Assembly: GCF_946902045.1 (NCBI RefSeq)
Contig: NZ_OX336253.1
Coordinates: 248,001 to 312,000, forward strand
Direction: 5' to 3'
Origin: Neisseria sp. Marseille-Q5346
Lineage (GTDB): Bacteria > Pseudomonadota > Gammaproteobacteria > Burkholderiales > Neisseriaceae
DNA length: 64,000 nt
The position numbers and the translations under genes were made by a program. Shown one piece after another: positions 8,255 to 24,845 of this stretch; position 1 is the first letter of the stretch, and every line of letters begins with the position of its first letter. The notes under the pieces are model-generated. The model ran no database searches. It was not told the DNA's origin and saw only the letters and a program-made list of their open reading frames with translations.

Positions 8255-8612
8255 CCGATCAAACAATAAAGGATTTGCTGAGAAAAGACTGGGAGATATA
8301 AATAAAAGGCCGTCTGAAACATTTCAGATGGCCTTTTTGTGTAAGTGATTGTACGACTAGGAGAAACAGGAATTAATAGACTAAAATACTAGTATTATGA
8401 ATTTAACATAATATAAATTAATTTCCTTTTCCCTATTCTTCTACAAATTCCGCTGTTTTGTTCCTATATGTTAAATGAGAATTAATGATACTCTAGAGAG
8501 AGTGCTTATAGTACTCCAATTTTTAGTATAAAATCAATAGGTTTTAAGAAATTTGTCAGTTTAATTTTACTATAACTCTACCACTGAATTATGGGATAGC
8601 GGAATAAAGTAG
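8255..8612 (+). repeat. Dispersed repeat, copy 1 (left flank of Rhs island)
   Basis: This noncoding stretch closely matches 24563-24845 and, over its first half, 31260-31480, all in the same orientation. Shared parts include a peptide tail reading DLLRK.W.I plus stop, a DUS hairpin, then GTAAGTGATTGTA, AATTTAACATAATATAAATT, and (copies 1 and 2) a segment with TTTTTAGTATAAAATCAATA. It lies where core-like DNA gives way to the Rhs island. No gene is seen in it. Confidence 0.75.
8304..8338 (+). terminator. DUS hairpin after the heme locus
   Basis: GGCCGTCTGAA (8308-8318) pairs with TTCAGATGGCC (8323-8333), one mismatch, with A-rich and T-rich flanks. It is a plausible rho-independent terminator for the heme-degradation genes. 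Confidence 0.7.
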
Positions 8613-8675
8613 AGGATAGTCATATGATCTTGCCAATGCAATCCTTCCTCCATCCCCAGGGAGAAGGGCAAAGGA

Positions 8676-9813
8676 TATAATCTTGGCAATGGTAATCTCC
8701 TCAACTGCTACCATTACTTAGGTACCCTGATCTACCGCCAGCTGCCCGACGGCGAAAACCAATATTACCAATACGATTTAGAAAACCAACTCGTCCGCGC
8801 CGAAATCAAAAAAGCAGCAGGCAATACCGAAATTTGGACCTACGCCTACGACCCGTTCGGAAGACGCCTTTCCAAAGAGCGCCAAGACAAACTTGCCTGG
8901 ACAAGTACCGACCCGAAACGCACCCACTTCGTCTGGGACGGCACGCGATTACTTCAGGAGTACACCTACAAAGGCAGCTACACCTATCTCTACACCGACC
9001 AAGACAGCTACGAACCGCTGGCGCAAGTCTTTGACAACGCCAAAGACAGCAAACAATATCTCGCCTATTTCCACAATGATCAAATCGGCATCCTGCGCGA
9101 GATGACCGACATCCACGGCAATCTGTTGTGGTACGGCGAATACACCGCCTGGGGTCGTCTGAAAAAGGACGAGCGGGTTTATAAGGATGCGCATCAGCCG
9201 TTCAGACTGCAAAATCAGTATTATGATGAAGAGACCGGGCTGCATTACAACCTGATGAGGTATTACGAGCCTGAGGTGGGTCGGTTTGTGAACCAGGACC
9301 CGATTGGGTTGTTGGGTGGGGATAATTTGTATTTGTTTGCACCAAATATGCAGACTTGGGTTGACTCATTAGGATTAAGCGGGAAGCTAACAATTTATTC
9401 TGATACACATGATTTTGTAGGACATGCATTTATTGGATTAGAGAAAAATGGCAGAACTCAATATATAGGTCAAAGGAGAAGGGTTTAGATATAATTCAAA
9501 GGATATTACTAGTATTTTGGTTAGTGATATGGGAGGGACTATGAGTTTTAATGATACGAGGTATTTGGATAGTAAGTATTTGGTATCAAGGAGTTATGAT
9601 TTGAATGATGATCAAATGAAAAAGGTTGAGTCATATATAAGGGACTTTAATAATAAAAATACAGAAACTTCTGGATATAATTTACGAAATAGGCAGTGTG
9701 CAAGTTTTGCATATGGAGCAAGTCAAGCTGCTGATATTAAAGAAATGAAAATGTCTGGTTGGGTTACTCCTGCTTCGTTAGCTAAGAAAATTAATAAATT
9801 AAATGGTAAATAA
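8676..9813 (+). pseudogene. Displaced Rhs C-terminal toxin piece, frameshifted (cassette 1)
   Basis: An open frame with no start codon from about 8676 to 9488 encodes the last part of an Rhs core ([54 protein letters not shown]) and the junction WVDSLGL. The unique C-terminal domain begins LTIYSDTHDFVGHAFIGLEK and stops at 9488. In the next frame the sequence continues without a break from about 9469 to 9813 (RYNSKDITSILVSDMGG to LRNRQCASFAYGAS), so a one-base frameshift splits the toxin. The His in GHAFIGLE and the Cys in RQCASFAYG, in that order, suggest a permuted papain-like (NlpC/P60-type) hydrolase; that is inference. It is the only Rhs piece on the plus strand. Confidence 0.75.
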
Positions 9814-9816
9814 ATT

Positions 9817-10167: not shown

Positions 10168-10382
10168 AATAGCAAAAGACAATTAAATCCTGTACAAATA
10201 TAGAATTTGTAATAATCTGAAGTTTACAACATACATTTTTTTACAAAATCACAGATAGCATGTGTGCTTTTAAAGCGTACATGCGCATATCTATGTTTTC
10301 TTCAATACAAGATTTTCCTTTTTACAGGGTTCTCTTGAATTTGATGGAACTGGTAAAGATCCTAGTTTGGAGAATTGATACT

Positions 10383-10495
10383 AGCAAGCCGTAGCCCGCA
10401 CAAAACCTTGAGTCCTGACGTAGGGTGTGTGCGGAACGCACGCACGCGGTTTCCACTTTTCAGACGGCCTCACTATCTTCTTTGAGGTCGTCTTA
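10383..10495 (+). repeat. 3' cassette tail repeat, copy 1, with DUS hairpin
   Basis: This stretch (AGCAAGCC..., TAGGGTGTGTGCG, CGCGGTTTC, then TTCAGACGGCCT...GAGGTCGTCT) lies downstream of the cassette-1 immunity gene. It matches, in the opposite orientation, 14398-14500, which lies downstream of the immunity gene of cassette 4. It appears to be a shared 3' end of Rhs cassettes. The final part can fold as a DUS hairpin terminator. The gap 10168-10382 is AT-rich and holds no gene I can support. Confidence 0.55.
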
Positions 10496-10540
10496 ACCAT
10501 TTGTTCTTTAACAATCTCATTAACAGTTAACATAAAGGCC

Positions 10541-11757
10541 GGGACCTTTGCAAAATTCCTTTTCCCCCAACAGCCGAAATCTAAATAAAGATTTTCGGCT
10601 GTTTTTGTTTCAAATATTCACTAATCCTACCCAAATACCCCCTTAATCCTCCCCGGATACCCGATAATCAGGCATCCGACCACCTTTTAGGCAGCAACAG
10701 GCACACTTAGCCTATTGTCGGCTTTCAACAGGTTCAAACACATCGCCTTTAGGTGGCTTTGTGCACTCACTTTACACAGACCAAAATAGGCTGCCCGGGC
10801 ATAGCGGAATTTACGGTGCAGCGTACCAAAGCTTTGTTCGACCACATAACGGGTCTTCGACAAATATCGGTTACGTTTGGTTTGCGCTTCCGTCAGCGGA
10901 CGGTTACGCTGGGCTTTGCGCATAATGCCGTCCAACAACCGATGTTCTTTCAGATGTTGCCGGTTTTCCTTACTGTCATAGCCTTTATCGGCATAGACGG
11001 TCGTATCTTTGGCTATACCTTCCAGCAAAGGCAACAGGTGGTTGCACTCATGGGTATTGGCGGGGGTGATGTGCAGTTTCTCGATATAGCCTTCCTCATC
11101 GGTACGGGTATGTTGTTTGTAACCGAGTTTGTAGAGGCCGTTTTTCTTTGTCCAGCGGGCATCGCTGTCTTTACTCGGTGTGGTTTGGCTGCTGACTTGC
11201 CCTTCGTCATCGACTTCTATGGCCTGACGCTGTTTGCTGCCGGCGGTCTGAATAATGGTGGCGTCAACGACGGCGGCGTATGCTTTCTCTACTTTTAAGC
11301 CTTTTTCGGTCAATTGTCGGTTAATCAGCTCCAGCAGTTCGGACAGGGTGTCGTCTTGCGCCAACCAGTTGCGGTAGCGGCATAAGGTGCTGTAATCGGG
11401 GATGCTCAGTTCGTCAAAACGGCAAAACAGGTTGAAATTGATGCGGGTGATGAGGCTGTGTTCGAGTTCGGGATAGGAGAGGCTGTGCCATTGTCCGAGC
11501 AGGACGGCTTTGAACACGGACAACAGGGGATAGGCGGGACGGCCGCGGTGGTCTCTAAGGTAACGGGTTTTTTGACGATTCAGGTATTGTTCGATCGGTT
11601 GCCAATCAATCACCTGATCCAACTTCAATAGTGGGAAGCGGTCGATGTGTTTGGCGATCATGGCTTGGGCGGTTTGCTGAAAGAAGGTACTCATGAGAAA
11701 TCCCCTAAATGTCTTGGAAGGAATTTAGGGGATTTTGGGGAATTTTGCAAAAGTCTC
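10541..11757 (-). mobile_element. IS1106-type (IS5 family) insertion sequence
   Basis: A complete-looking element of about 1.2 kb is bounded by inverted ends: GACCTTTGCAAAATTCC on the left and, reading inward from the right end, GAGACTTTTGCAAAATTCC. It contains one transposase gene on the minus strand and a hairpin (AGCCGAAA...TTTCGGCT with T run, 10571-10606) after it. It splits Rhs debris: the right flank resumes in an Rhs fragment. No clear target duplication is visible. A partial copy lies at 24915. Confidence 0.85.
10687..11694 (-). CDS. IS5-family transposase (IS1106 type)
   Basis: The 335-residue transposase has the N-terminal DUF772 region (FQQTAQAMIAKHIDRFPLLK, YPLLSVFKAVLLGQWHSLS) and a DDE catalytic domain with VVDATIIQTAGSKQR, VYADKGYDSKENRQ and YVVEQSFGTLHRKFRYARA as the D, D and E regions. 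It closely resembles the transposase of neisserial IS1106. The reading frame is intact, so the element may still be mobile. Confidence 0.9.
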   Translation of the reverse strand: MSTFFQQTAQAMIAKHIDRFPLLKLDQVIDWQPIEQYLNRQKTRYLRDHRGRPAYPLLSVFKAVLLGQWHSLSYPELEHSLITRINFNLFCRFDELSIPDYSTLCRYRNWLAQDDTLSELLELINRQLTEKGLKVEKAYAAVVDATIIQTAGSKQRQAIEVDDEGQVSSQTTPSKDSDARWTKKNGLYKLGYKQHTRTDEEGYIEKLHITPANTHECNHLLPLLEGIAKDTTVYADKGYDSKENRQHLKEHRLLDGIMRKAQRNRPLTEAQTKRNRYLSKTRYVVEQSFGTLHRKFRYARAAYFGLCKVSAQSHLKAMCLNLLKADNRLSVPVAA

Positions 11758-11873: not shown

Positions 11874-11923
11874 GATATTTTGTTGGGTCTCGGCCAAACT
11901 TACGCTTGCTACAGTTAATAAAG

Positions 11924-12199
11924 TCAGATGAATGTATCAGAACACTTATGTAGTTTATATTTTTCCCAATGAAAATTACTAATATCGTCTTCTGAAGCAT
12001 TCACTATCTTTGACTTGATAGAATATTCCATAAATTTTTTTCTTTGTTGAGTTAAGTCATCCTCATTTTCCCAGCAACTCATACATTCATCGCAACAGAG
12101 AAATAATTTATTAGAGTCAATATTTTTTTTTATAATTAATCTACCTTGCCCATCGCATATGGGGCACTCTCTAAACCAAAAATAATCAGTACTTATCAT
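11924..12199 (-). CDS. Putative immunity protein of cassette 2
   Basis: The 91-residue protein begins within the last codons of the preceding toxin piece (ATGA overlap at 12196-12199), the typical coupling of toxin and immunity genes. It contains CPIC near residue 13 and CCDEC near residue 35, so a small zinc-ribbon fold is possible. The gene is AT-rich compared with the Rhs core. Family not recognised; the immunity role is inferred from position. Confidence 0.55.
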
Positions 12200-12732
12200 G
12201 ATGGGTATCCTGTAATAATTTTATTGGTGCCTTTCATTACAATAATTTTGACTTTTGTAAGAATTGCTCCTGTATCTCTGTCATAGCCGATTGGCTGATT
12301 CATTTCTACGTTATATGTATCTGTATCGTTATCTGAACTGTCAGGACAACGATTCTTCTTCATTCTTTTTTTCCATGCCTTGTTAACTGTTGGAACAGGT
12401 TTTTGTTTGAAGATACTTTGTTTGGGCTTGTTGGGATTAACCGAACCATGATTATCTATAATATGAGCTAGTCTGTCTCCAACTCCCTTCCAGTTCCAAT
12501 TAAGACCACCAGATTGGGAAGATTTCACTAGCCCAAGAGGGTCAATCCACTCTGTGATATTCGATGCAAATTGATAGGGGTTCGCCCCGTCCAACAACCC
12601 AATTGGGTCCTGATTAACAAACCGCCCAGCATCAGGCTCATAATACCTGAAGAAGTTGTAATGCAGCCCCGTCGCACGGTCAGCGTACTGGTTTTGAAGA
12701 CGAAAGCAGGTTTGCGGTTGAGGCGTACGTCA
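12196..12732 (-). pseudogene. Displaced Rhs C-terminal toxin piece (cassette 2)
   Basis: The minus strand carries the end of an Rhs core ([20 protein letters not shown], then [20 protein letters not shown]), the intact junction WIDPLGL, and about 105 residues of unique toxin. These include [12 protein letters not shown] and the end [11 protein letters not shown]. His-containing segments and a TxxxTxYP-like end recall small BECR-fold RNase toxins, but this is a guess. At about 12700 the core is joined, out of frame, to a stretch that in the full-length gene encodes the N-terminal [11 protein letters not shown] region. So nearly the whole Rhs gene is missing and no start codon of its own remains. 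Confidence 0.65.
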
Positions 12733-12737
12733 AGAAA

Positions 12738-13550
12738 CTATTTAAATTCTCCCAATAATTTTTTTCTTAATTCAGCAAATTCATCCGATAAATTATTTTT
12801 AAGTTCAGTATAAATTTCATCATCAATTTTACTTTGAGTGAATAGTGTCTTTTCAATATAAGGGATAACTTTTTTAGAACTAATTGAAATTAAAAATGCA
12901 ATAATTTCATTGTAAATATAAGATTTTTCATTAAATTGGCTTAGTTTATCTATTAGTAAATTTTCAATTGATTCTGATTTATAATGTTTTCCTTTTAATC
13001 CATACAATACCCATGAGATAATTTTGTGATGCTTGCTGTTTAAATTTTTTATAAGATATTCTTTTATAAAATTTCTTTTTGGGAAATATGCAGAACTAAA
13101 TGCAATAGAAATAATTATAGAATATCTATTTATATTCCAAATAGAACTAATATTATTTTCTATAGTGCGAAACTCTTCTTCTCCTAGATTATATTTTTTA
13201 AATAGATGTCCTAAAGAAGATATTGCAGATGATTTCACTTTAATACTTTTGTCATTTTGAATAGAGTAAATTAATATAGAGAAAATTTCTTTCAATTCCG
13301 TAGTGCTAAGTTCTTCTTGTATTTGTCCCAAGATAAAATTTGCAATTTCTCTATGTTTACTATATCGACTTGTTAAGAGGATATTTCTGATTATATCAAT
13401 AATCTCTTTATACTGAAAAAATTGTAGTCTTTTTGCTGCTTCATATTGAATAATAGTATTAGAATGTAGTAGTTTTTCTAATAAGTCATTGATTGATAGA
13501 TCTTTACATTCTAAAAAAGCGTCAAAACTTGAAATTCTATCATTTACCAT
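12738..13550 (-). CDS. HEAT-repeat-like putative immunity protein of cassette 3
   Basis: From the ATG at 13550 (AGGA 8 nt upstream; the longer frame to 13604 lacks such a site) this is a 270-residue, helix-rich, AT-rich protein. Repeated units such as IQYEAAKRLQFFQYKEIIDI, KVKSSAISSLGHLFKK and KHHKIISWVLYGLKG resemble HEAT/armadillo repeats, a fold used by several immunity proteins. Its start overlaps the stop of the broken toxin frame just upstream (TAA at 13544-13546), showing they were a coupled pair. Confidence 0.6.
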   Translation of the reverse strand: MVNDRISSFDAFLECKDLSINDLLEKLLHSNTIIQYEAAKRLQFFQYKEIIDIIRNILLTSRYSKHREIANFILGQIQEELSTTELKEIFSILIYSIQNDKSIKVKSSAISSLGHLFKKYNLGEEEFRTIENNISSIWNINRYSIIISIAFSSAYFPKRNFIKEYLIKNLNSKHHKIISWVLYGLKGKHYKSESIENLLIDKLSQFNEKSYIYNEIIAFLISISSKKVIPYIEKTLFTQSKIDDEIYTELKNNLSDEFAELRKKLLGEFK

Positions 13551-14370
13551 ATTATTTTTCCTGTTACACTTATCTTTCGAATGCCAAGAATGGCAATATT
13601 CCAAGCTTTTTGAGTAGATTTAGCTTGTTTGGCAGATATTTTTCCACAATCAATTAATTCTTACAATACTTCACATTTATCTGGTTTTTTCCTGTACTTT
13701 GAAAATACTCATTTATTTTTTCATAAACTTGATTAGCAACCCCAGTATCTACTTGATTACCATTTGCTGCCATCATTACTGTATCAAGAGCTTTTTTCCC
13801 TTTTTCATAAATAATACCTATACCTAAAGTTACAAGCGCAGCTTTACCTAACGTAATCAATTCAGGAGCAATAAGGGGTATTGCAAAAACTGCCAAGCCT
13901 TTAGGGTCGATCCATCTTTATCGGTCATATCTCGAGGGATGCCGATTTGGTCGCAGTGAAAGTAGTGGGTTTGTTGTTGGCTTTCGCCGTCTTCGGTTGT
14001 CCAATTGTGTACCTGTGCCAAAGGTTCGTAAGAATCCGGGTCGGTGTAGATATAGATATATCTGCCGTCTGGTTGGACTTCCTGCAAGAGGTGGCTGCCG
14101 TCCCAAACGAATCCGGTTTCCTCTTCGAGGTTGTCTGAAACTTCTTCGTTTTTCAGACGGCCTTTGCCTATCCTTCTGCCCAGGGCGTCGTAGGTGTAGG
14201 CCCAAGTCTCTTTCGTGCCATCTTTTTTGAAGATTTCCGCTTTAACCAGTTGGTCATGCAGATCGTAGAAATAGTTCTGTACTTCGCCGTCGGCCAGTTC
14301 GCGGTGGATCAGGTTGCCGAAGTTGTCGTAGGGTCGGCAGACCGTCTTGGCCGTATTCGTAGGCTGTTTT
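13544..14370 (-). pseudogene. Displaced Rhs toxin piece with internal deletion and frameshifts (cassette 3)
   Basis: Starting at 14370, the minus strand has a few codons of mid-core sequence. It jumps at about 14329 to a later part of the core (FGNLIHRELADGEVQNYFYD through YHFHCDQIGIPRDMTDKDG in approximate sense). At about 13905 it jumps out of frame to a toxin domain whose lead-in reads DPKGLAVFAIPLIAPELI. The toxin frame breaks again at about 13650 (…YCKN stop); its end (IDCGKISAKQAKSTQKAWN to GKIIW) continues in another frame down to 13544. Toxin family not recognised; the lead-in is hydrophobic, like the linker of other polymorphic toxins. Confidence 0.65.
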
Positions 14371-14397
14371 GGCTTAGATTGTTATGGAAGAAATATT

Positions 14398-14500
14398 TCA
14401 GACGACCTCACAAAAGGATTGAGGTCGTCTGAAAAATAGAAACCGCGTACGCACACATCCTACCTCTAGATTGTAGGTTTCATACGAGCTGTGGCTTGCT
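14398..14500 (-). repeat. 3' cassette tail repeat, copy 2, with DUS hairpin
   Basis: On the minus strand this follows the cassette-4 immunity gene and reads AGCAAGCCACAGC..., TAGGATGTGTGCG, CGCGGTTTC, then a perfect hairpin of GACGACCTCA/TGAGGTCGTC type. It matches the tail after cassette 1 (10383-10495). Confidence 0.55.
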
Positions 14501-14535
14501 TTGGGGAAATTCAATCATTATATCCAACTTTTGGT

Positions 14536-15036
14536 TCAAACATGTTCAACATGATATTTCTTTAAAATAGGATGATTCAATAGAAATTCTAGATATTTTT
14601 TACAAAGTTTCTCTCCGCATAATTTATACACATTAAAGAAAGTGGGAAGTAGTATATCGGATACCGTAGCGTAGTTCTCAAGTGCATCAGTGAATTGTTC
14701 CTCATCTGATAACCCTCCTAGTATAAGTTGAGTAAAGTTTCTTTCATGTGATGATGTTTGTGAATCATAAATTTTCCAAACTCTTATGCGCTCCTTCTTC
14801 AATTCATCATTTGATAAGGCATTGGATAAATTCAATAGAATTTTACGACATGTATTTTCTGCTAATTTTATTAAAGTATCAGGTATTTGATTATGAATAC
14901 AAGGACTAGATAAAAGTACGTTTTTGATGAAATCATGCGTAATTATCTGAACATCATGATAATTCATGGCATCAATATCAAATGTATCGGTTAATTTTCG
15001 TCCTGCTATAACATCAGGTCTATTTACTTCAGTCAT
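14536..15036 (-). CDS. Putative immunity protein against the YwqJ-like deaminase (cassette 4)
   Basis: The start at 15036 is chosen because a strong GGAGG lies 5 nt upstream and because the toxin stop TAA (15038-15040) lies immediately before it. This gives 166 residues: an acidic, mostly helical, AT-rich protein (VNRPDVIAGRKLTDTFDIDA near the start). I do not recognise the family. The tight coupling to the deaminase-like toxin makes an immunity role likely. Confidence 0.6.
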   Translation of the reverse strand: MTEVNRPDVIAGRKLTDTFDIDAMNYHDVQIITHDFIKNVLLSSPCIHNQIPDTLIKLAENTCRKILLNLSNALSNDELKKERIRVWKIYDSQTSSHERNFTQLILGGLSDEEQFTDALENYATVSDILLPTFFNVYKLCGEKLCKKYLEFLLNHPILKKYHVEHV

Positions 15037-15037
15037 T

Positions 15038-16115
15038 TTAACCTCCATTACCGTCGCGAATTCCAAGATTTTTTAATACGTGGCTACAGGAAGGACATGC
15101 ACGCATAGGTTTTCCTTTTTTGTCGTTTCTGTTTGCTGTAGAGACAGAATTTTTTGCTAATTTTCTAAGCTCTTCCATATTGGTAACATTTGCCTTTTCT
15201 GCCCCTTTACTGAGAGCCTCTGCTTCAGCACATCTACCATGCATACGAGGATCAGAACGTTTATCAATGGGGACATTATCGTATGCTTCTTGAACAACGG
15301 GATGGGTAATACCTTTACCACCCTCTCCAGTGCTAAGGCCAGTTATTGTTCCTCCGGGTACATTTGGTCCAGTCCATGTAACTCTAGCACCAGTCAACCC
15401 TAAAAAATCAATCCATACGGAAGAATTCAAGCCATATAGATAGAAATTATTTCCACCCCATAAACCAATCGGATCTTGGTTAATAAATCTTCCACATTCT
15501 GGCTCATAATACCTGAAGAAGTTGTAATGCAACCCCGTCTCACGGTCGGCATACTGGTTCTGTAATCGGAAGGGTTGGTAAGCGCTATCCGTTACCTTGG
15601 TTTCGCTCTTCAGTTTGCCCCAGCCGTAATAATCGCCGAACCAAACCAGGTTGCCGTCTTTATCGGTCATCTCACGCGGGATACCGATTTGGTCACAGTG
15701 GAAGTAGTGGATTTCCTGTTTGCTTTCGCCTTCGGTATTGGTGTGGTTGCGTACCTGTGCCAAAGGTTCGTAGCTGTCGGGATCGGTGTAGATATAGGTA
15801 TATCTGCCTCCGGTTGGACTTCCTGCAAGAGGTGGCTGCCGTCCCATACAAATCCGGTTTCCTCTTCGAGGCCGTCTGAAACTTCTCCGTTTTTCAGACG
15901 GCCTTTGCCTATCCTTCTGCCCAAGGCGTCGTAGGTGTAGGCCCAAGTCTCTTTCGTACCGTCTTTTTTGAAGATTTCCGCTTTAACCAGCTGGTCGTGC
16001 AGATCGTAGAAGTAGTTCTGTACTTCGCTGCTTTTACGGATTAAACGGGTAGCAGTCGTCATAGTTGAAATGCAGGATGGTGCCGTCGAGAAGGACTACC
16101 CTACCCATTTACATT
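15038..16115 (-). pseudogene. Displaced Rhs piece with YwqJ-like deaminase toxin (cassette 4)
   Basis: Reading from 16115, a short mid-core stretch (HFNYDDCYPFNP-like decay of FDYDDNYRLIRKS) is joined at about 16030 to EVQNYFYDLHDQLVKAEIF, so a large core section is deleted. One base is missing near 15819 and shifts the frame. The rest is open to 15038: Rhs end (YYEPECGRFINQDPIGLWGG), junction WIDFLGL, then a toxin domain with HGRCAEAEALSKGAE and, 40 residues later, RACPSC. His/Cys-Ala-Glu plus CPxC is the zinc and catalytic signature of the YwqJ-like deaminase family, so the original toxin probably deaminated a nucleic acid or nucleotide base. Confidence 0.75.
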
Positions 16116-16148
16116 TTAATTTCAATCTATCCCTGCTTGCTGATTGTT

Positions 16149-16445
16149 TTATTTGAAAACGAATGATACATATAGATTTTGATTGTTTTTAAAATTATCT
16201 AAATATTTTCTTGTTTCTATAATGCTATCACTTTGAATATTTCCTTCGTAATACCAATTGTCATAAGTGTGTTCAAATTTATTACTATTTTTTTTATATA
16301 TATCTCCTCCTAGAATAAAAAAATTTAAATTATCTAAGATATCTATAATATCATTAGATAATTCTATGGGTATAATTACAGTATTTTCTCCTTGTTCAAA
16401 TAGGCTGACTCCATTATTAATATAAATACTAATTAATTTGTTCAT
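16149..16445 (-). CDS. Imm40-like immunity protein (cassette 5)
   Basis: The 98-residue protein starts 17 bp after the stop of the 929-codon Rhs gene. Its central motif NFFILGGDIYKK followed by YDNWYYEG resembles the ILGGDVY...YDNW pattern I associate with immunity family Imm40. The gene is much more AT-rich than the Rhs core. The function is protection against the C-terminal toxin of the Rhs protein just upstream, inferred from position and motif. Confidence 0.6.
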   Translation of the reverse strand: MNKLISIYINNGVSLFEQGENTVIIPIELSNDIIDILDNLNFFILGGDIYKKNSNKFEHTYDNWYYEGNIQSDSIIETRKYLDNFKNNQNLYVSFVFK

Positions 16446-16462
16446 AAATTTACTTCCAGTAG

Positions 16463-19252
16463 TTATTTATTAGGTCTAAATAAACGGTGATTAATGTTGC
16501 CGTTTGGTTCTTTTATATATTCAAAAACACCTTCTTTTCCTTTATATCCTCCAGGTATTTCTAGTTTCTGTCGCGTTATTCCATCCCCCCCCTTAATTTT
16601 TGTTACTTTACCATATCTTGAAAAACTATCAGCAGCTTCAGGGAAACTATGATAATCTCCAGATGAGGCCTGCCTTTTAACTTTTTCTGTATATCTTGTC
16701 CCTTTAAAGAAATTTTTTGCTTGGCACTTGCCAATACATAATTTTGCAGCTTTACCTAAAACAGGTCCTGTTATTGCACCGATACCAGCTCCAAGAGCCA
16801 CACTTCCATAATCAATATCATTCCATTCTTTACCATTAATTACATTAGAAGCGACTTGCATACCTGCATCGGTTGCAGCACCTGAAAGTGCACCCACTCC
16901 AATCGCAATCAGAATTGGTATAAAAGCTATATTTCCACTTGGATCTGTCCAAGTTTGGGCATTCGGCGCAAAAGCATACAAATTCTCCCCACCCATTAAC
17001 CCAATCGGATCCTGATTCACAAACCGCCCAACGTTCGGCTCGTAATACCTAAAGAAATTGTAATGCAGCCCCGTTTCACGGTCGGCATACTGGTTTTGCA
17101 GGCGGAAGGGCTGGTATGCGCTATCCGTTACCTTGGTTTCCTCTTTCAGACGGCCCCAGCCGGTGTAGTTGCCAAACCACAAGAGGTTGCCGTCTTTATC
17201 GGTCATCTCACGCGGGATACCGATTTGGTCGCAGTGGAAGTAGTGGGTTTGCTGGCGGTTTTCGCCTTCTTCGGTTGTCCAGTTTCGGACCTGTGCCAAA
17301 GGTTCGTAGCTGTCGGGATCGGTGTAGAGATAGGTATACCTGCCGTCAGGGTGGACTTCCTGCAAGAGGTGGCTGCCGTCCCAAACGAAGCGGGTTTGGT
17401 TTTCGAGGCCGTCTGAAACTTTTCCGTCTTTCAGACGGCCTTTGCCTATCCTTCTGCCCAGGGCGTCGTAGGTGTAGGCCCAAGTCTCTTTCGTGCCGTC
17501 TTTTTTGAAGATTTCCGCTTTAACCAGTTGGTCGTGCAGGTCGTAGAAATAGTTCTGTACTTCGCCGTCGGCCAGTTCGCGGTGGATCAGGTTACCGAAG
17601 TGGTCGTAGTAATAGGTCGTGCCGTTGTAGGTTTTCAGGCGGTTGTCGGGGACGGTAGGGCTATTGTTATCGGACAGGATATTGTGCGCGGGGTCGAAGG
17701 CGAACAGTTCGTTGCCGGCTTGGGTAATCCGGCCCAGTTTGTCGTACTCGAACCGGGTCGTGCTCGTCCGCTGGTCGGTACTGTGGGTTAGGTTGCCGGT
17801 ACGGTCGTAGCCGTAGCTGCGTTTGACGGCATAAGCCGATGCTACTGCATTTTTAGCTGTTTCGGTCTGCGTCAGGTCGTTGAGTGCGGCAATTTGCCTT
17901 TTCAGACGGCCTAAGGGATCGAGTTCGTAACGGCTGGCGAGTTTACCCTGTGTACGGTAGATTTCGCGGTGCAGCTTATCACGTTCGATGTCGGAGATGA
18001 CTTCGTCGTCGAGGCTGATTTGGTGCAGGTGGCCGCTGCCGTAATACAGATAGTTGATTTGTCTGCCGTCGGGCAGGACGGTGGTGGTACGGTTGCCGTT
18101 GAAGTCGTAGTGGTAGAGGATGCTTTCGGTAACGGGCAGGTACAGCATGTCGTACTGCGCATTGCGCCAGTCGGTTTCGGGCAATCCGTTTCGGGCATTC
18201 TCTTCCTTAGTCGGTACCCTCCATTGGTGCTGGCCGATGATTTGGCCGTTGCCGTTGTAGTCGAAGCAGGTAATGCTGTGGCTGTTGGCGGCACGGACGA
18301 GGTTGCCGTCCAGGTCGTATTGGTAAACGGTTTCCTGAACCTTGTCGTTGTTGCGGGCGAGGGTATGGATTAAGCGTCCCAATACATCGCGTTTGAACTC
18401 GGTAGTCCGCAGCGGGGTTTGGCCGTCGAGGCCGTCTGAAAGCGGGGCGGCGTCTTTTTTGGGGACGGGTTGTCCGCCCAGCTGCGCCATCAGTTTGGCG
18501 GCAAGGGAGGCTTCGTCGCCGAATTCACGCTGTTCAATCAGTTCGTTGCCGGCGTTGTAGCGGTAGCCGGTGAGCTTATGGTCGAAACCGCTTTCTGCAA
18601 TCAATCGGTCGAGGATGTCGTAGGCAAAGCGGTAGCGCGCACCGTTTTCATTGGTGAGGCCGACTAAGCGGCGGGCTTGGTCGTAATGGTAGCCGAAGGT
18701 ATGGCCCAAGGCATTGGTGCGTCGGGTCGGCAGACCGTCCTGGCCGTATTCGTAGGAGGTGGTGTGGCCTTCGCCGTCGGTATGGGTGGTCAGACGACCT
18801 GCGGCATCATAGCCGAAGGTCTCCTTGCTGCCGTCGGGATAGAGGGCGAGGGTGAGGTGTTGATTGGTGTCGTAGTGGTATTCGGTGTGCTGTCCCAGCG
18901 CATCGGTAATACGCGCCAGCTGTCCTTCGGGGGTGTAAGAGAGTTTGGTTTCGTAACCCGAACAGTCGGTAATCCGGTCGGGCTGATGGTTTTCGTTATA
19001 GTGGTATGCGGTACTGCTGCCGTTCGGATCGGTTACCGACAGCAACAGACCGTTGCCGGCATATTCGAAACGGGTGATGTGTTTCAGCGGGTCGGTATAG
19101 GCCAATCCGGCCGCATCGCGGATAATGCGTTGGCAGCCAGGTACGCTCCAACCCTCGCCGAGCCAGCCGGTACCGTCTTGGTCGGAATAATAGCTGCGGC
19201 TCCATACTAGAGGCAAAATGCCTTCAAAGGCAAAGTCGGTTTCACCCTCCAA
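16463..19252 (-). CDS. Rhs core with C-terminal toxin, 5'-truncated (cassette 5)
   Basis: An open frame of 929 codons begins at a TTG and encodes Rhs/YD repeats (many GYDRTGN, YEYGQDGLPTRR-type units), the RHS end ([27 protein letters not shown]) and the junction WTDPSGN, which lacks the usual DPxGL leucine. The toxin follows a hydrophobic glycine-rich linker (FIPILIAIGVGALSGAATD) and ends with a compact domain (YTEKVKRQASSGDYHSFPEA, GGDGITRQKLEIPG, INHRLFRPNK). Compared with the 1403-residue gene it lacks about 970 bp inside the core (junction at 19097, LAY|TDPLKH, in frame). The PAAR-like N-terminus is absent or out of frame, so it is probably not an independently delivered effector. Confidence 0.75.
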   Translation of the reverse strand: MEGETDFAFEGILPLVWSRSYYSDQDGTGWLGEGWSVPGCQRIIRDAAGLAYTDPLKHITRFEYAGNGLLLSVTDPNGSSTAYHYNENHQPDRITDCSGYETKLSYTPEGQLARITDALGQHTEYHYDTNQHLTLALYPDGSKETFGYDAAGRLTTHTDGEGHTTSYEYGQDGLPTRRTNALGHTFGYHYDQARRLVGLTNENGARYRFAYDILDRLIAESGFDHKLTGYRYNAGNELIEQREFGDEASLAAKLMAQLGGQPVPKKDAAPLSDGLDGQTPLRTTEFKRDVLGRLIHTLARNNDKVQETVYQYDLDGNLVRAANSHSITCFDYNGNGQIIGQHQWRVPTKEENARNGLPETDWRNAQYDMLYLPVTESILYHYDFNGNRTTTVLPDGRQINYLYYGSGHLHQISLDDEVISDIERDKLHREIYRTQGKLASRYELDPLGRLKRQIAALNDLTQTETAKNAVASAYAVKRSYGYDRTGNLTHSTDQRTSTTRFEYDKLGRITQAGNELFAFDPAHNILSDNNSPTVPDNRLKTYNGTTYYYDHFGNLIHRELADGEVQNYFYDLHDQLVKAEIFKKDGTKETWAYTYDALGRRIGKGRLKDGKVSDGLENQTRFVWDGSHLLQEVHPDGRYTYLYTDPDSYEPLAQVRNWTTEEGENRQQTHYFHCDQIGIPREMTDKDGNLLWFGNYTGWGRLKEETKVTDSAYQPFRLQNQYADRETGLHYNFFRYYEPNVGRFVNQDPIGLMGGENLYAFAPNAQTWTDPSGNIAFIPILIAIGVGALSGAATDAGMQVASNVINGKEWNDIDYGSVALGAGIGAITGPVLGKAAKLCIGKCQAKNFFKGTRYTEKVKRQASSGDYHSFPEAADSFSRYGKVTKIKGGDGITRQKLEIPGGYKGKEGVFEYIKEPNGNINHRLFRPNK
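17001..19098. repeat. Rhs core duplication, copy A
   Basis: This 2.1-kb stretch aligns with 20788-22885 at a constant offset of 3,787 bp, so there is no insertion or deletion along its length. The encoded core residues look identical between the two Rhs genes except at the toxin-proximal edge. Recent duplication or gene conversion is implied. Confidence 0.9.
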
Positions 19253-19478
19253 AACTTCAAACCGTGTATCGGATTCACCGGCCGACCGGCACCCACTGCA
19301 CCCTTACAGGACAGACAGGTTTTAGGGGGAAGTCTTTTGCTGAACTTGCCGTTCATATGGAACATATCGCCGGTGCGCACGATATAGCGTTTGCGGATTT
19401 TAACCGAGGAAGAATGGCGCATCGGCCAGGCCGGTTTGGTGGCGGTACGGGAAAGTATGCCCTTGCGGCCCGGAAGTT
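19207..19478 (-). pseudogene. Frameshifted N-terminal remnant of cassette-5 Rhs
   Basis: In the frame shifted from the main 929-codon frame, the minus strand encodes LPGRKG...RTATKPAWPMRHSSSVK and CLSCKGAVGAGRPVNPIHGL, the region after the PAAR-like domain in the full-length protein. A run of A residues is five long in the full-length gene (around 24015) and four here (around 19250), which puts the two parts out of frame. An in-frame TAA at about 19480 cuts the 5' end. Confidence 0.7.
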
Positions 19479-20244
19479 ATAAATAAAGTTGGATAATACT
19501 TGTTATTTTTTTTTGTGTTTCAACACTAATTTCCTGGTTAAAATTTTGGATTAATTTAAGAAAATCAATAATTAAGTTGATTTGATTAGTGTTAAATATC
19601 GTACTTTGGTCTCTTAGGGCAATATATAAAAAGTCAACAACGTAACCATATAAATAGAATTTAGATAAATTAGAAAAAATATATTTTAAACAGCAAGGAG
19701 TAAAATATAATATAGCCTTATTAGTAAAGGCTTGCCACTCTAGTGATTCAAGTATTGAGAGAAAATCATCGTATGTTATCTCAATCCAAGTTTTAGTAGA
19801 TAATTGCATTATAGAAAATATATAAAAGTTATCACTATCATCAAAACTTATGATGTTATTTTTATCAACTTTAAAAATTGGGAAAGTAGGCTTAATTTTT
19901 TCTTCTAGACAATTTCGTTCTTGTATATATTTTACCTCCATAAGAAATTTTTCAAATTCATAATTCACTCCTAAATCTTTGATAAACTTAGAAATATATT
20001 CTAAAAAATCATAAATTATATTAATTTCATTTTTGGTTAAAGATTGTAGTAAATTAAATAGTTCACTTACTTCTCCTTGGGATATGTTAGAATAATAGCT
20101 AAATAATTCTATGAAATAATCATTATCTATACTAGGATTTTCTATTGAGTTTAGTAAAAGTGTATTTAAATGTAAAGCATTTTCATTTTTTTGTTTATCT
20201 GACATTTGATTTTTAATTAACAAAATTAGATTGTTTTTTTTCAT
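19477..20244 (-). CDS. Putative immunity protein of the full-length Rhs effector (cassette 6)
   Basis: The gene encodes 255 residues and starts 17 bp after the 1403-codon Rhs gene, the normal place for the cognate immunity protein. It is AT-rich and mostly helical (DNDYFIELFSYYSNISQGEV near residue 40), acidic, without signal peptide or membrane segments. The second ATG (MSDKQKNENALHL, residue 14) is an alternative start; neither has a strong ribosome-binding site. Family not recognised. Confidence 0.6.
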   Translation of the reverse strand: MKKNNLILLIKNQMSDKQKNENALHLNTLLLNSIENPSIDNDYFIELFSYYSNISQGEVSELFNLLQSLTKNEINIIYDFLEYISKFIKDLGVNYEFEKFLMEVKYIQERNCLEEKIKPTFPIFKVDKNNIISFDDSDNFYIFSIMQLSTKTWIEITYDDFLSILESLEWQAFTNKAILYFTPCCLKYIFSNLSKFYLYGYVVDFLYIALRDQSTIFNTNQINLIIDFLKLIQNFNQEISVETQKKITSIIQLYL

Positions 20245-20261
20245 GTCTTACTTTCTATATT

Positions 20262-23200
20262 TTAAGGTATGGCAGCATTTGCAGGAATTGTTCCCCATAA
20301 AGGAGGGAGTAAAGAAGGCAAAAACCGAACAATTCGATAAACTATATATGCAGCTCCAGCACCAGCAACAACTTTTGCTCCTGTTTCTACAGTAGACCTC
20401 GGAACAGCAGGATTTTTCCACTGTTTAGGCTGAGGAACTGGTTTTGTCGCCCACTTCCACGCCCCAGAAGGGGGACTTCCACAACCTGAATCGTTCCACT
20501 CCTGCAAACGGTCTCTAAGGCTTTTCTGTTGATTCTTGATTTCCTGTTCATGTGTTTTCCACGACTGGGTACCAGGACCATTGCGACCATTAATTTGTTC
20601 ATTGAACCTATGGCGCAAACCATGAGTGCCACCATTGTTACATTTCCGTTTATCTCTATTAATTAATCTATCAATATCTTGCCCAATCTCTTCGCATGAT
20701 CGTTTTGACTTTCCTTTTAGACCTAATGGATCAAGCCAACGAGATATATTGAAGGCAAACATATAAAAATTACTACCTCCAAACAACCCAATCGGATCCT
20801 GATTCACAAACCGCCCGACGTTCGGTTCATAATACCTAAAGAAATTGTAATGCAGCCCCGTTTCACGGTCGCAATACTGGTTCTGCAGGCGGAAGGGCTG
20901 GTATGCGCTATCCGTTACCTTGGTTTCCTCTTTCAGACGGCCCCAGCCGGTGTAGTTGCCAAACCACAAGAGGTTGCCGTCTTTATCGGTCATCTCACGC
21001 GGGATACCGATTTGGTCGCAGTGGAAGTAGTGGGTTTGCTGGCGGTTTTCGCCTTCTTCGGTTGTCCAGTTTCGGACCTGTGCCAAAGGTTCGTAGCTGT
21101 CGGGATCGGTGTAGAGATAGGTATACCTGCCGTCAGGGTGGACTTCCTGCAAGAGGTGGCTGCCGTCCCAAACGAAGCGGGTTTGGTTTTCGAGGCCGTC
21201 TGAAACTTTTCCGTCTTTCAGACGGCCTTTGCCTATCCTTCTGCCCAGGGCGTCGTAGGTGTAGGCCCAAGTCTCTTTCGTGCCGTCTTTTTTGAAGATT
21301 TCCGCTTTAACCAGTTGGTCGTGCAGGTCGTAGAAATAGTTCTGTACTTCGCCGTCGGCCAGTTCGCGGTGGATCAGGTTACCGAAGTGGTCGTAGTAAT
21401 AGGTCGTGCCGTTGTAGGTTTTCAGGCGGTTGTCGGGGACGGTAGGGCTATTGTTATCGGACAGGATATTGTGCGCGGGGTCGAAGGCGAACAGTTCGTT
21501 GCCGGCTTGGGTAATCCGGCCCAGTTTGTCGTACTCGAACCGGGTCGTGCTCGTCCGCTGGTCGGTACTGTGGGTTAGGTTGCCGGTACGGTCGTAGCCG
21601 TAGCTGCGTTTGACGGCATAAGCCGATGCTACTGCATTTTTAGCTGTTTCGGTCTGCGTCAGGTCGTTGAGTGCGGCAATTTGCCTTTTCAGACGGCCTA
21701 AGGGATCGAGTTCGTAACGGCTGGCGAGTTTACCCTGTGTACGGTAGATTTCGCGGTGCAGCTTATCACGTTCGATGTCGGAGATGACTTCGTCGTCGAG
21801 GCTGATTTGGTGCAGGTGGCCGCTGCCGTAATACAGATAGTTGATTTGTCTGCCGTCGGGCAGGACGGTGGTGGTACGGTTGCCGTTGAAGTCGTAGTGG
21901 TAGAGGATGCTTTCGGTAACGGGCAGGTACAGCATGTCGTACTGCGCATTGCGCCAGTCGGTTTCGGGCAATCCGTTTCGGGCATTCTCTTCCTTAGTCG
22001 GTACCCTCCATTGGTGCTGGCCGATGATTTGGCCGTTGCCGTTGTAGTCGAAGCAGGTAATGCTGTGGCTGTTGGCGGCACGGACGAGGTTGCCGTCCAG
22101 GTCGTATTGGTAAACGGTTTCCTGAACCTTGTCGTTGTTGCGGGCGAGGGTATGGATTAAGCGTCCCAATACATCGCGTTTGAACTCGGTAGTCCGCAGC
22201 GGGGTTTGGCCGTCGAGGCCGTCTGAAAGCGGGGCGGCGTCTTTTTTGGGGACGGGTTGTCCGCCCAGCTGCGCCATCAGTTTGGCGGCAAGGGAGGCTT
22301 CGTCGCCGAATTCACGCTGTTCAATCAGTTCGTTGCCGGCGTTGTAGCGGTAGCCGGTGAGCTTATGGTCGAAACCGCTTTCTGCAATCAATCGGTCGAG
22401 GATGTCGTAGGCAAAGCGGTAGCGCGCACCGTTTTCATTGGTGAGGCCGACTAAGCGGCGGGCTTGGTCGTAATGGTAGCCGAAGGTATGGCCCAAGGCA
22501 TTGGTGCGTCGGGTCGGCAGACCGTCCTGGCCGTATTCGTAGGAGGTGGTGTGGCCTTCGCCGTCGGTATGGGTGGTCAGACGACCTGCGGCATCATAGC
22601 CGAAGGTCTCCTTGCTGCCGTCGGGATAGAGGGCGAGGGTGAGGTGTTGATTGGTGTCGTAGTGGTATTCGGTGTGCTGTCCCAGCGCATCGGTAATACG
22701 CGCCAGCTGTCCTTCGGGGGTGTAAGAGAGTTTGGTTTCGTAACCCGAACAGTCGGTAATCCGGTCGGGCTGATGGTTTTCGTTATAGTGGTATGCGGTA
22801 CTGCTGCCGTTCGGATCGGTTACCGACAGCAACAGACCGTTGCCGGCATATTCGAAACGGGTGATGTGTTTCAGCGGGTCGGTATGGGTCAGCAGGTTGC
22901 CCACTTCGTCATAGGTATAGCCGTGGTAACGGCTTTCGGTATCGCTTTTGCGGATCAGTCGGTAGTTGTCGTCATAGTCGAAATGCAGGATGACGCCGTC
23001 CGGACGGGTAATACTTTCTACCTGGCCTTCGTTGCTGTACTGATAACGGGTAACGCGTCCCATTGCATCGGTATGGCTGAGCAGACGGCCCAAGTCGTCG
23101 CGTTCCATCAGGTTGGTGCTGCCGTCGGCAAACACCCGTTTGGTCAACTCATTGTTGTAATCGTAATGATATTGCTCGGTACGGCCCAGTATGTCGGTTA

Positions 23201-24473
23201 CCTCGGTGTAACCTTCGTGATAGGTAAAACGCCATTCCTCGCCCAAGGAAGTCCGGTTGCGGATGACTTTGCCGGTCGGGGTGTAGTGGTCGTATTCGTA
23301 TTCCGATACCAATCCGGCCGCATCCGTATGCGACACCATCAGATTGTTCTTATAGCCGAAGCTGCGTTTGACATTACCGTCGCGGCCGATGACGCGGATC
23401 AGGTCACCACTGCCGTTGTATTCATAGCGGACCAGCGGCGTACCGACCCGAACGGTTTCGCCAAAGGCGGGTAAACCCTCCAACAGCGATACCGACAGCA
23501 GCCGCATTTTGGGCGACTGTTCATCAGCCACATTGCCGAAGTTCAGCGAGAATACCCGGCCGTTGCCGTCAATAATGTATTGCGGCAAACCGGTCAGCGG
23601 ATGATAGACGAAACGCTGATGGTTGCCGTTGGCGTCTTCCACCGCGACCAAAGGGAAGAGGGTGGAATCTTCATCCGAACCGTCTTCAGCGACCACCAAA
23701 GGGGCAAAACGCAGCGCTATCGAACCGTCCAGCGAAGCAATGACGTAATGGCCGTCCGGGTTCTTGCTGAACCAAATCTGTTCGCTCTCGAACAATACCG
23801 GCTCTTCGTCATCTTCATCGACTTCCGGCAAAGGGAACAAACGGCCCTGATCGTCGATATAGGCCAATCCGGCCGCATCGCGGATAATGCGCTGGCAGCC
23901 CGGTACGCTCCAGCCCTCGCCGAGCCAGCCGGTACCGTCTTGGTCGGAATAATAGCTGCGGCTCCATACCAAAGGCAAAATGCCTTCAAAGGCAAAGTCG
24001 GCTTCACCCTCCAAAAACTTCAACCCGTGTATCGGATTGACCGGACGGCCGGCACCTACCGCCCCCTTACAGGACAAACAGGTTTTAGGGGGGAGTCTTT
24101 TGCTGAACTTGCCGTTCATATGGAACATATCGCCGGTACGCACGATATAGCGTTTGCGGATTTTAACCGAGGAAGAATGACGCATCGGCCAGGCCGGTTT
24201 GGTGGCGGTGCGGCTTTTTACCCCTTTACGGCCAGGAAGGGCGATTTCGTCGCCATAAGTTTTATCCGTCTTACTGGCATTAAAGACAAAAGCAGGCTTG
24301 CGGTTGAGGCGTACGTCTTTGGCGACGGTCTTGGCACCGCCGAGATCGGCAAAGAGTGGGAAGGGGATGGGTGGAACGGAAGGGGGAGCGGGTGGAGGAG
24401 GCCAACAGAAATCGGGGACGGTAAAGACGACCCTGAAGTCGCTGCTTTTACGGGCGATTTTATTGACGGCCAT
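20262..24473 (-). CDS. Full-length PAAR-like/Rhs polymorphic toxin effector (cassette 6)
   Basis: The 1403-residue protein is the only complete Rhs gene here. Residues about 10-120 form a PAAR-like DUF4150 region (VPDFCWPPPPAPPSVPPIPF), which in type VI secretion sits on the spike tip. Residues about 150-1250 hold the DUF6531/YD-repeat shell. The RHS end ([27 protein letters not shown]) leads to the intact autoproteolysis-type junction WLDPLGL. The last ~140 residues are a unique toxin (SCEEIGQDIDRLINRDKRKC, GTHGLRHRFNEQINGRNGPG) ending in a hydrophobic stretch that could cross a membrane. I do not recognise the toxin activity. No T6SS genes lie in the window, so delivery would need a system elsewhere. 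Confidence 0.85.
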   Translation of the reverse strand: MAVNKIARKSSDFRVVFTVPDFCWPPPPAPPSVPPIPFPLFADLGGAKTVAKDVRLNRKPAFVFNASKTDKTYGDEIALPGRKGVKSRTATKPAWPMRHSSSVKIRKRYIVRTGDMFHMNGKFSKRLPPKTCLSCKGAVGAGRPVNPIHGLKFLEGEADFAFEGILPLVWSRSYYSDQDGTGWLGEGWSVPGCQRIIRDAAGLAYIDDQGRLFPLPEVDEDDEEPVLFESEQIWFSKNPDGHYVIASLDGSIALRFAPLVVAEDGSDEDSTLFPLVAVEDANGNHQRFVYHPLTGLPQYIIDGNGRVFSLNFGNVADEQSPKMRLLSVSLLEGLPAFGETVRVGTPLVRYEYNGSGDLIRVIGRDGNVKRSFGYKNNLMVSHTDAAGLVSEYEYDHYTPTGKVIRNRTSLGEEWRFTYHEGYTEVTDILGRTEQYHYDYNNELTKRVFADGSTNLMERDDLGRLLSHTDAMGRVTRYQYSNEGQVESITRPDGVILHFDYDDNYRLIRKSDTESRYHGYTYDEVGNLLTHTDPLKHITRFEYAGNGLLLSVTDPNGSSTAYHYNENHQPDRITDCSGYETKLSYTPEGQLARITDALGQHTEYHYDTNQHLTLALYPDGSKETFGYDAAGRLTTHTDGEGHTTSYEYGQDGLPTRRTNALGHTFGYHYDQARRLVGLTNENGARYRFAYDILDRLIAESGFDHKLTGYRYNAGNELIEQREFGDEASLAAKLMAQLGGQPVPKKDAAPLSDGLDGQTPLRTTEFKRDVLGRLIHTLARNNDKVQETVYQYDLDGNLVRAANSHSITCFDYNGNGQIIGQHQWRVPTKEENARNGLPETDWRNAQYDMLYLPVTESILYHYDFNGNRTTTVLPDGRQINYLYYGSGHLHQISLDDEVISDIERDKLHREIYRTQGKLASRYELDPLGRLKRQIAALNDLTQTETAKNAVASAYAVKRSYGYDRTGNLTHSTDQRTSTTRFEYDKLGRITQAGNELFAFDPAHNILSDNNSPTVPDNRLKTYNGTTYYYDHFGNLIHRELADGEVQNYFYDLHDQLVKAEIFKKDGTKETWAYTYDALGRRIGKGRLKDGKVSDGLENQTRFVWDGSHLLQEVHPDGRYTYLYTDPDSYEPLAQVRNWTTEEGENRQQTHYFHCDQIGIPREMTDKDGNLLWFGNYTGWGRLKEETKVTDSAYQPFRLQNQYCDRETGLHYNFFRYYEPNVGRFVNQDPIGLFGGSNFYMFAFNISRWLDPLGLKGKSKRSCEEIGQDIDRLINRDKRKCNNGGTHGLRHRFNEQINGRNGPGTQSWKTHEQEIKNQQKSLRDRLQEWNDSGCGSPPSGAWKWATKPVPQPKQWKNPAVPRSTVETGAKVVAGAGAAYIVYRIVRFLPSLLPPLWGTIPANAAIP
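20788..22885. repeat. Rhs core duplication, copy B
   Basis: Second copy of the 2.1-kb block described at 17001-19098, inside the full-length Rhs gene. Differences cluster at the toxin-proximal edge (for example the codons around 20870). Confidence 0.9.
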
Positions 24474-24562
24474 GGGGTGCTTTACTCCAGAGATTGGATA
24501 GTGATATAGAAGAATAATATCCGTTGACTGAATCTTACTTTATTTGGATATGAAAAGAAAAG

Positions 24563-24845
24563 CGTACTGAAAAATTTCAGATAGGATTTTTGTGTAAGTC
24601 ATTGTATAGCTAGGAGAAACAGGAATGAATAGACTAAAATACTAGCACTATGAATTTAACATAATATAAATTATGTAGTTTTTCCCTATACCTAACAATC
24701 GCCGTTGTTTATTCCTGTTTGTTAACTATTAGTCAATCTTAAAAGATTCCGTATAATACTCCAATTTTTAGTATAAAATCAATAGGTTTTAAGTTGCTTA
24801 ATTTTACTGTAACTCTACCACTGAATTAATGAGTAATGGAATAGT
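24563..24845 (+). repeat. Dispersed repeat, copy 2 (right flank of Rhs island)
   Basis: It matches copy 1 (8255-8612) from the degenerate DUS hairpin through TTTTTAGTATAAAATCAATA to TCTACCACTGAATTA, in the same orientation. With copy 1 it brackets the Rhs island as a ~16-kb direct repeat pair. The whole gap 24474-24914 holds this repeat and no gene. Confidence 0.75.

Follow-up and report, generated by a model that had tools for sequence, protein, structure and literature searches.

Rhs diversity in Enterobacteriaceae was reportedly traced by Jackson et al. in 2009 to C-terminal displacement, and potential targets among the Bacteroidales have gathered orphan type VI secretion system (T6SS) immunity genes into acquired interbacterial defence clusters, which are linked to recombinases and belong to that one order. 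In Snodgrassella alvi, a member of the Neisseriaceae, toxin-free immunity genes occur and the reverse was not seen, as far as the excerpted text of Steele et al. (2017) goes (PMC5727410), and immunity genes outnumber toxins in oral bacteria, including Streptococcus oralis, according to the available part of Zhang et al. (2012; PMC3482391). Here we describe an island of Rhs toxin ends and presumed immunity genes in Neisseria sp. Marseille-Q5346, together with the copies of its immunity genes in oral bacteria of other phyla. The island lies in a window of 64 kb (the whole stretch of DNA analyzed, positions 248001–312000 of a 2.35-Mb single-contig genome) and comprises a complete rhs gene (F1), five displaced ends (F2–F6), and a presumed immunity gene after each end (imm1–imm6).

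The locus probably represents a neisserial displacement island, and its relatives in oral bacteria from other phyla a polyimmunity archive directed at the Rhs effectors of Neisseria. The evidence lies in DNA identity, in marks of the DNA uptake sequence (DUS), in the insertion site, in orientation, and in an asymmetry between intact immunity genes and intact toxin ends. To our knowledge, arrays of immunity genes that derive from Neisseria and have lost most of the toxins are unreported in other phyla; a search by title and start of abstract through the open-licence literature, exclusive of preprints, found no report of neisserial immunity arrays in streptococci. The arrays bear on the possible role of T6SSs in shaping communities with Gram-positive members, and lasting attack across phyla would leave a large neisserial immunity array with most toxins lost.

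Copies of the immunity genes in other phyla

A search of named genomes with F1 found 27 loci. Of these, 8 belong to Neisseria and 1 to Aggregatibacter; the other 18, from Streptococcus, Veillonella, Lachnoanaerobaculum, and Rothia, contain rows of short rhs core stubs. The proteobacterial relatives of the window among the named genomes are nearly all Neisseria. By blastn, the best DNA identity in Bacillota is 94.9% for imm1 (full-length copies at 93.5–94.9% in seven genomes, namely five Streptococcus, Veillonella, and Lachnoanaerobaculum), 92.3% for imm2 (Streptococcus Marseille-Q0941), 98.4% for imm3 (S. infantis DD18), 96.9% for imm4 (S. infantis ATCC 700779), 85.4% for imm5 (Lachnoanaerobaculum, with two gap positions), and 97.4% for imm6 (96–97% in four Streptococcus genomes). 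As for the toxin ends, that of F2 is found at 90.6% DNA identity in Streptococcus Marseille-Q0941 and that of F3 at 95–97% in three Streptococcus genomes; blastn against 31 loci gave no match to the F1 end and matched only the last 167 of the 427 nucleotides of the F6 end.

The window has an unusual junction, at which imm1 is directly followed by core residue 79. The same junction is present as an unbroken stretch of 918–945 nucleotides at 92–94% identity in S. infantis ATCC 700779, S. timonensis, and Lachnoanaerobaculum and, because it is common to them as continuous DNA, these three genomes and the window seem to descend from an already rearranged island. The immunity genes of other Neisseria pairs are also archived in the arrays (up to 100% amino acid identity), among them the genes paired with two rhs genes close to tssC in the genome of the window (100% and 96% amino acid identity).

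Within the genus, 45 other Neisseria genomes, one per species, were searched for imm3 and imm4, with six candidates scored per genome. Among the matches listed, imm4 has relatives at 72–73% DNA identity in at least 4 of the 45 genomes, and there is none for imm3. The imm4 relatives (G295:C1:1400088, G270:C1:1087068, G275:C1:615893, and G278:C107:804) lie away from the sampled rhs stretches. In metagenomes (P0008, P0020, and P0010–P0012), relatives of imm1 are fused to PF26541 domains or to domains that we take to be ankyrin-type; these fusions are perhaps polyimmunity proteins. The actinomycete Rothia aeria (L012, L085) carries rhs N-terminal parts at 82–95% amino acid identity, a broken imm3 copy at 92.6% DNA identity, and three DUS clusters.

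Intact immunity genes and lost toxin ends

A list of 77 end/immunity pairs, forming 67 immunity clusters, was drawn from 31 Neisseria stretches and the window. Pairs were accepted on condition that the end has an open frame up to its stop in Neisseria. The list does not contain imm4 or imm6 of the window. Some stretches overlap, so that pairs recur, and clustering at 80% reduces these repeats. Three doubtful or split pairs (pr014, pr040, and pr072) were set aside from the count of intact loci, for which the thresholds were 60% for immunity genes and 50% for ends, at a coverage of 0.3. In ten sequences from Bacillota and Rothia, 62 of 74 immunity loci are intact as compared with 4 of 22 toxin-end loci (Fisher 2e-8), and the difference persists at stricter thresholds of 80% and 70% (45/55 versus 4/17). 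The four intact ends belong to Streptococcus Marseille-Q0941 (two) and S. timonensis (two), and for 48 of the 62 intact immunity loci no remnant of their own end was detected within 2.5 kb. The same test across Neisseria genomes, applied to sampled rhs stretches rather than whole genomes, found 18 of 20 immunity loci and 21 of 30 ends intact. Copies of 23 of the 67 immunity clusters were found in other phyla and of 12 in other Neisseria stretches.

Uptake sequences and spacer elements

The DUS 10-mer has 78 copies in the window. In five streptococcal genomes, 117 of 136 matches fall within the arrays, which account for 246 kb of ∼9.7 Mb (2.5% of the DNA); the counts in array and genome are 34/39, 35/40, 18/21, 17/21, and 13/15. 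The reversed pattern, used as a control, has 40 matches genome-wide in the same five genomes, and no DUS was found in 82 kb of flanks of six arrays. Genome-wide counts are 19 for Veillonella (control 6) and 30 for Rothia (control 12), and a 25-kb locus of Lachnoanaerobaculum (L029) holds 9 matches. Two dialects are present in the six arrays, with 102 matches of the GT type and 42 of the GC type. The GT type is presumably the dialect of the mucosa/sicca group; if so, the two dialects would indicate more than one donor. In Neisseria, immunity genes are followed by spacer elements that contain inverted DUS (in the window and in L002 and L004, two further rhs loci of the same genome), and related elements recur at many borders between units in the Bacillota arrays.

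Site and composition of the streptococcal arrays

Six streptococcal genomes carry arrays of 30–63 kb, by bounds that we set, beside zwf. In S. infantis ATCC 700779, DD18, and UC921A, S. timonensis, and Streptococcus Marseille-Q0941, the array sits between zwf and ftsY, the genes that we presume to encode the flanking proteins; in S. xiaochunlingii, zwf is at one side and the other side lies outside the view. Among 30 Streptococcus loci, chosen as the nearest to S. infantis FtsY in 118 genomes and viewed with 1.5-kb flanks, the gap between ftsY and zwf measures 72–80 nucleotides in 25, and the remaining 5 are three array carriers and two loci with another gene after ftsY. In these two (L127 in G084 and L128 in G073), the gene is unrelated and has a signal-peptide-like start, and the gap is therefore a variable site. 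Placement between ftsY and zwf was not observed for the arrays of Lachnoanaerobaculum, Rothia, and Veillonella, a diderm member of Bacillota, whose contig spans 23 kb.

All 92 near-full-length immunity matches in eight arrays point the same way within their own array. No rhs frame in the arrays exceeds 331 amino acids when frames are cut at masked bases; one rhs-core frame of DD18, counted as 587 amino acids, runs into a masked stretch. TssC is found in none of the eight array-bearing genomes. Pfam assigns, among others, Imm43 (2), SMI1_KNR4 (2), and Barstar, Imm-NTF2, Imm21, Imm15, and Imm10 (1 each) to 39 hand-picked frames of the S. infantis array. The Bacillota arrays thus have the makeup of polyimmunity loci, with unlike immunity genes in tandem and in the same orientation and with few toxins, and their protective function is putative. 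Most rhs core fragments from other phyla (149 of 190) begin no earlier than residue 1075. In Neisseria, 9 of 110 core fragments start near residues 625–650, the largest bin after the true start.

By eye, no recombinase was recognized among the streptococcal frames of at least 230 amino acids, in an inspection that was not a systematic search, and transposase-like frames were seen in the Lachnoanaerobaculum and Rothia stretches. Some pairs of neighbouring immunity genes have an order that is common to Veillonella and several streptococci (L025, L082–L084, L066–L069, and L070–L073), and by this equal order arrays also seem to move between Veillonella and streptococci.

Organization of the Neisseria island

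A preliminary description of this DNA had proposed that six Rhs ends of different kinds each precede a distinct small AT-rich gene, and this arrangement is borne out between 8.6 and 24.5 kb of the window (Table 1). On the minus strand, reading leftwards, the order is F1, imm1, F2, imm2, F3, imm3, F4, imm4, F5, imm5, and a transposase gene that we take to be IS5-like; F6 and imm6 follow one another on the plus strand at the left side of the island. The array is not a chance arrangement, because tblastn with the F1 protein finds core remnants before all five other ends. Orphan ends with core remnants and immunity genes lie downstream of the full gene, as in a C-terminal displacement array, with F6 as the exception (opposite strand and another core class). 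All six presumed immunity genes are open, as are the ends of F2, F3, and F5, and the ends of F4 and F6 are broken.

Table 1. Features of the rhs island, in positions of the 64-kb window
Feature	Position	Strand	Remarks
F1, complete rhs gene, 1403 aa	20262..24473	-	Tox-PAAR-like N-terminus, RHS repeats, Tox-WTIP end
imm1, presumed immunity gene of F1, 255 aa	19477..20244	-	no Pfam or NCBIfam match
F2, truncated rhs copy and open end	16463..19476	-	tblastn; end with no NCBIfam family above cut-off
imm2, 98 aa	16149..16445	-	weak Imm40 match (PF15569, E 1.9e-4), below family cut-off
F3, core residues 1042-1254 and YwqJ-like deaminase end	15038..16028	-	core frame break near 15808
imm3, 170 aa	14536..15048	-	open frame
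F4, core residues 1008-1169 and out-of-frame end piece	13654..14378	-	core/end junction lost
imm4, 288 aa from TTG, HEAT-like	12738..13604	-	weak HEAT match below cut-off
F5, core residues 1194-1257 and open end	12196..12705	-	tblastn; end with no NCBIfam match
imm5, 91 aa	11924..12199	-	open frame
IS5-like (presumed) transposase gene inside island	10687..11694	-	partial second copy at 24917-25302
Spacer element 3' of an immunity gene	10382..10541	+	DUS in inverted-repeat context; copies in L002, L004, Bacillota arrays
imm6, 116 aa	9817..10167	+	open frame
F6, end on another rhs core class	8640..9813	+	end split over two frames, 9102-9488 and 9517-9813
Left flanking repeat	8300..8615		direct repeat of 24553-24852, 80-88% in three pieces; related stretches in L001
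Right flanking repeat, upstream of F1	24553..24852		pairs with 8300-8615

F1 matches PF05593, PF03527, PF13665, and PF15654, with a Tox-PAAR-like N-terminus (PF13665, E 6.7e-16) and ten RHS_repeat stretches, which is the domain set of a Tox-PAAR-like T6SS Rhs effector; F1 is thus a T6SS Rhs effector of this class, putative in its delivery and toxicity. Assignment of its N-terminus to the classical PAAR proteins was rejected, as PF05488 (PAAR_motif) is unmatched anywhere in the genome and Tox-PAAR-like is a separate family. The core of F2 comprises residues 79–153 and 135–207 and then 528–1251, with residues 1–78 and 208–527 missing and the frame broken near 19252. At the DNA level, the F6 core shares 88% identity with the rhs genes of L002 near tssC and ∼70% with the F1-type genes of L004 and of L001, another rhs locus of this genome; its protein identity to F1 is 56%. 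For imm4, the array copies suggest a start at a Met further in than the TTG. NCBIfam gave no family above cut-off for the ends of F2, F4, and F5, the second F6 piece, or imm1, imm2, imm3, imm5, and imm6. Carriage by a plasmid or phage was considered and dismissed, as positions 11900–20300 of the window are without a near match in the plasmid or phage collections. A partial second copy of the IS5-like gene lies at 24917–25302, just outside the island and in the same orientation, and the two flanking repeats together with the IS5-like copies frame the island.

Other rhs genes of the genome and exchange of ends

The earlier view of F1 as the single complete PAAR-like Rhs gene is correct for the island and does not extend to the genome, which has further full-length rhs genes in L001 (1409 amino acids), L004 (1381 and 1411 amino acids), and L002 (1374 amino acids). 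It also encodes TssC (PF05943, E 1.3e-137) at C1:644422, the marker by which the presence of a T6SS was called. F1 and its upstream stretch are 99.7% identical in DNA to the L001 gene over 4036 nucleotides, after which the ends are unrelated, and F1 is 98.8% identical over ∼3.7 kb to the two L004 genes, whose ends are again different. Across the window, L001 (C1 224000–243900), and L004 (C1 664001–682000), the cores share 97.6–99.7% of their DNA sequence and the ends differ; near-identical cores with different ends at three places suggest recent copying or conversion between loci. For N. subflava, additional rhs genes that encode PAAR domains and stand apart from the T6SS cluster are mentioned in the part at hand of one report (PMC10210955).

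In other Neisseria, one end occurs in an open frame of 378 residues in G257 and in one of 1591 residues in G291 (98.9% amino acid identity), and comparison of these sequences supports the exchange of ends through the rhs core in the genus. The proposal that the full gene swaps its toxin through a shared core, and the expectation that an orphan end would be found on a full-length gene elsewhere, thus hold in part: the near-identical cores with unrelated ends and the G257/G291 end agree with them, but no close copy of the F2, F3, or F5 end, the displaced ends of the window that were compared, was found on a long gene. A store of at least six toxin specificities is not supported, as breaks affect F4 and F6 among the five displaced ends and the F6 core is of another class, and six toxins interchangeable through one common core were rejected on the same grounds. 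The displacement architecture of the island is a known mechanism, and its first local interpretation was partly overstated; the wider comparison points to retention of immunity genes, not to storage of toxins.

Alternative explanations

A possible but somewhat doubtful alternative is that the island is a reservoir for toxin swapping, in which displaced ends are kept for re-uptake by the full gene via the core. The near-identical cores with unrelated ends in one genome, the single end carried by frames of different length in G257 (short) and G291 (long), and the open ends of F2, F3, and F5 accord with such a reservoir; the broken ends of F4 and F6, the F5 core of only 64 residues at ∼72% DNA identity, the different class of the F6 core, and the absence of close copies of the F2, F3, and F5 ends on a long gene do not, and the toxin-free immunity genes in other phyla would be left unexplained. 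It is unlikely that the island and the Bacillota arrays are merely unused relics of repeated uptake, with AT-rich genes surviving by chance. Although the core segments carry 84 in-frame stops in 16104 residues (230 segments) and some immunity genes have stops or indels, as decay would produce, intact immunity loci far outnumber intact toxin ends in the same arrays, orientation within arrays is uniform, the same site is occupied in five streptococci, and the copies are maintained in several genera. The pN/pS value (nonsynonymous versus synonymous differences) is 0.27 for window versus array immunity copies (23 alignments). Between arrays, pN/pS does not discriminate immunity genes from core stubs and was discarded as proof of selection; only stop codons differ, with 17 in 9299 codons of immunity genes and 57 in 5906 codons of core stubs. 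The claim of retention therefore rests on intactness and not on pN/pS, since the latter hardly differs and some array copies are broken.

The direction of transfer may also be questioned. AT-rich immunity genes might have arisen in Bacillota and been captured by Neisseria, as the immunity frames of the arrays mostly have 20–35% GC and those of the window are similar, next to ∼55% for the F1 core. Such a reverse flow is improbable, given that rhs core stubs, DUS, and spacer elements of neisserial type occur alongside the array copies, and that five streptococcal arrays occupy a site that in most compared relatives is a gap of 72–80 nucleotides; a more ancient origin of the immunity genes elsewhere is possible. 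Neisseria and streptococci are sampled from the same sites, which would allow for contamination of streptococcal assemblies with Neisseria DNA, but in six separate assemblies the array lies beside native genes within contigs that measure 239 kb to 1.9 Mb, with cores trimmed to short stubs unlike those of Neisseria islands, and we give contamination almost no credence.

The preferred reading, a neisserial displacement island and a polyimmunity archive in other phyla, could have come about as follows. Within Neisseria, DNA from transformation would recombine in the conserved rhs core, so that the full-length gene would gain a new end together with the matching immunity gene and the old pair would be left behind; the core and toxin remnants would then decay and the immunity genes would stay open. 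Oral bacteria of other phyla would take up immunity genes with core stubs, DUS, and neisserial spacers, and in the streptococcal arrays the toxin ends are mostly lost and the immunity genes kept. More tentatively, streptococci might hold a heritable and growing immunity archive at a fixed site downstream of zwf, captured by transformation from attacking Neisseria, with units from several donors, in one orientation, and with the toxin removed.

Several points weigh against this reading. Among the matches listed, imm5 is closer in Neisseria (91% in G275; 77% in G273) than in other phyla (85%). The pair list is limited to ends with an open frame in Neisseria, and a remnant with less than 50% identity would escape the count. 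Lachnoanaerobaculum has 12 DUS matches against 18 for the reversed control and hence no genome-wide excess. Arrays are rare among species representatives: the core-end query matches 7 of 247 Streptococcus genomes, five of them with at least 8 matches, imm1 occurs in 4 of the 247, and in the phylum of Lachnoanaerobaculum 3 of 398 genomes match, namely the seed and two at 33–45% identity in longer open frames. Between arrays, pN/pS does not separate immunity genes (0.26–0.28) from core stubs (0.33–0.34), probably because much divergence predates transfer. Stops or indels are present in imm1 of S. xiaochunlingii, in imm3 of S. xiaochunlingii (one of two copies), S. timonensis, and Rothia, and in both array copies of imm5. 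Transformation as the route, T6SS attack as the selective force, and actual protection are all what we infer from the sequences, and a report on the T6SS names Gram-negative bacteria and yeast as targets in the part of its text considered (PMC13375697). A precedent in favour of the reading comes from the portion at hand of another report, in which B. subtilis is killed by a T6SS Rhs nuclease and protection is given by the immunity proteins of that nuclease (PMC10989746).

Should the more tentative reading of a growing archive be true, acquired immunity to contact weapons would be common to different phyla. For the Neisseria island, emphasis moves from toxin storage to retained immunity, and the arrays provide matched toxin/immunity pairs and a means of reading the history of attackers and targets in genome sequence.

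Comparison with known systems

Displacement of rhs ends in Enterobacteriaceae takes place within one bacterial family, and the part that is new here is the one that crosses phyla; the defence clusters of Bacteroidales likewise remain within one order, whereas the present arrays extend across phyla. In the accessible sections, rhs is unmentioned in a comparative study of S. infantis and its relatives (PMC6722419), as are Streptococcus and Neisseria in a 2026 profiling study (PMC13288982). The rhs loci of Snodgrassella alvi resemble the island in that a complete rhs gene and its immunity gene are followed by truncated orphan ends with immunity genes, and in that ends are common to co-resident species; they differ in that the sharing is with Gilliamella, a proteobacterium, and Gram-positive bacteria are unmentioned in the excerpted text (PMC5727410). 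The polyimmunity loci of Zhang et al. are like the arrays described here in holding unlike immunity genes in the same orientation, but the source of those genes is unnamed in the available part of that study (PMC3482391), whereas near-identical neisserial relatives, rhs stubs, DUS, and an insertion site are identified for the present arrays.

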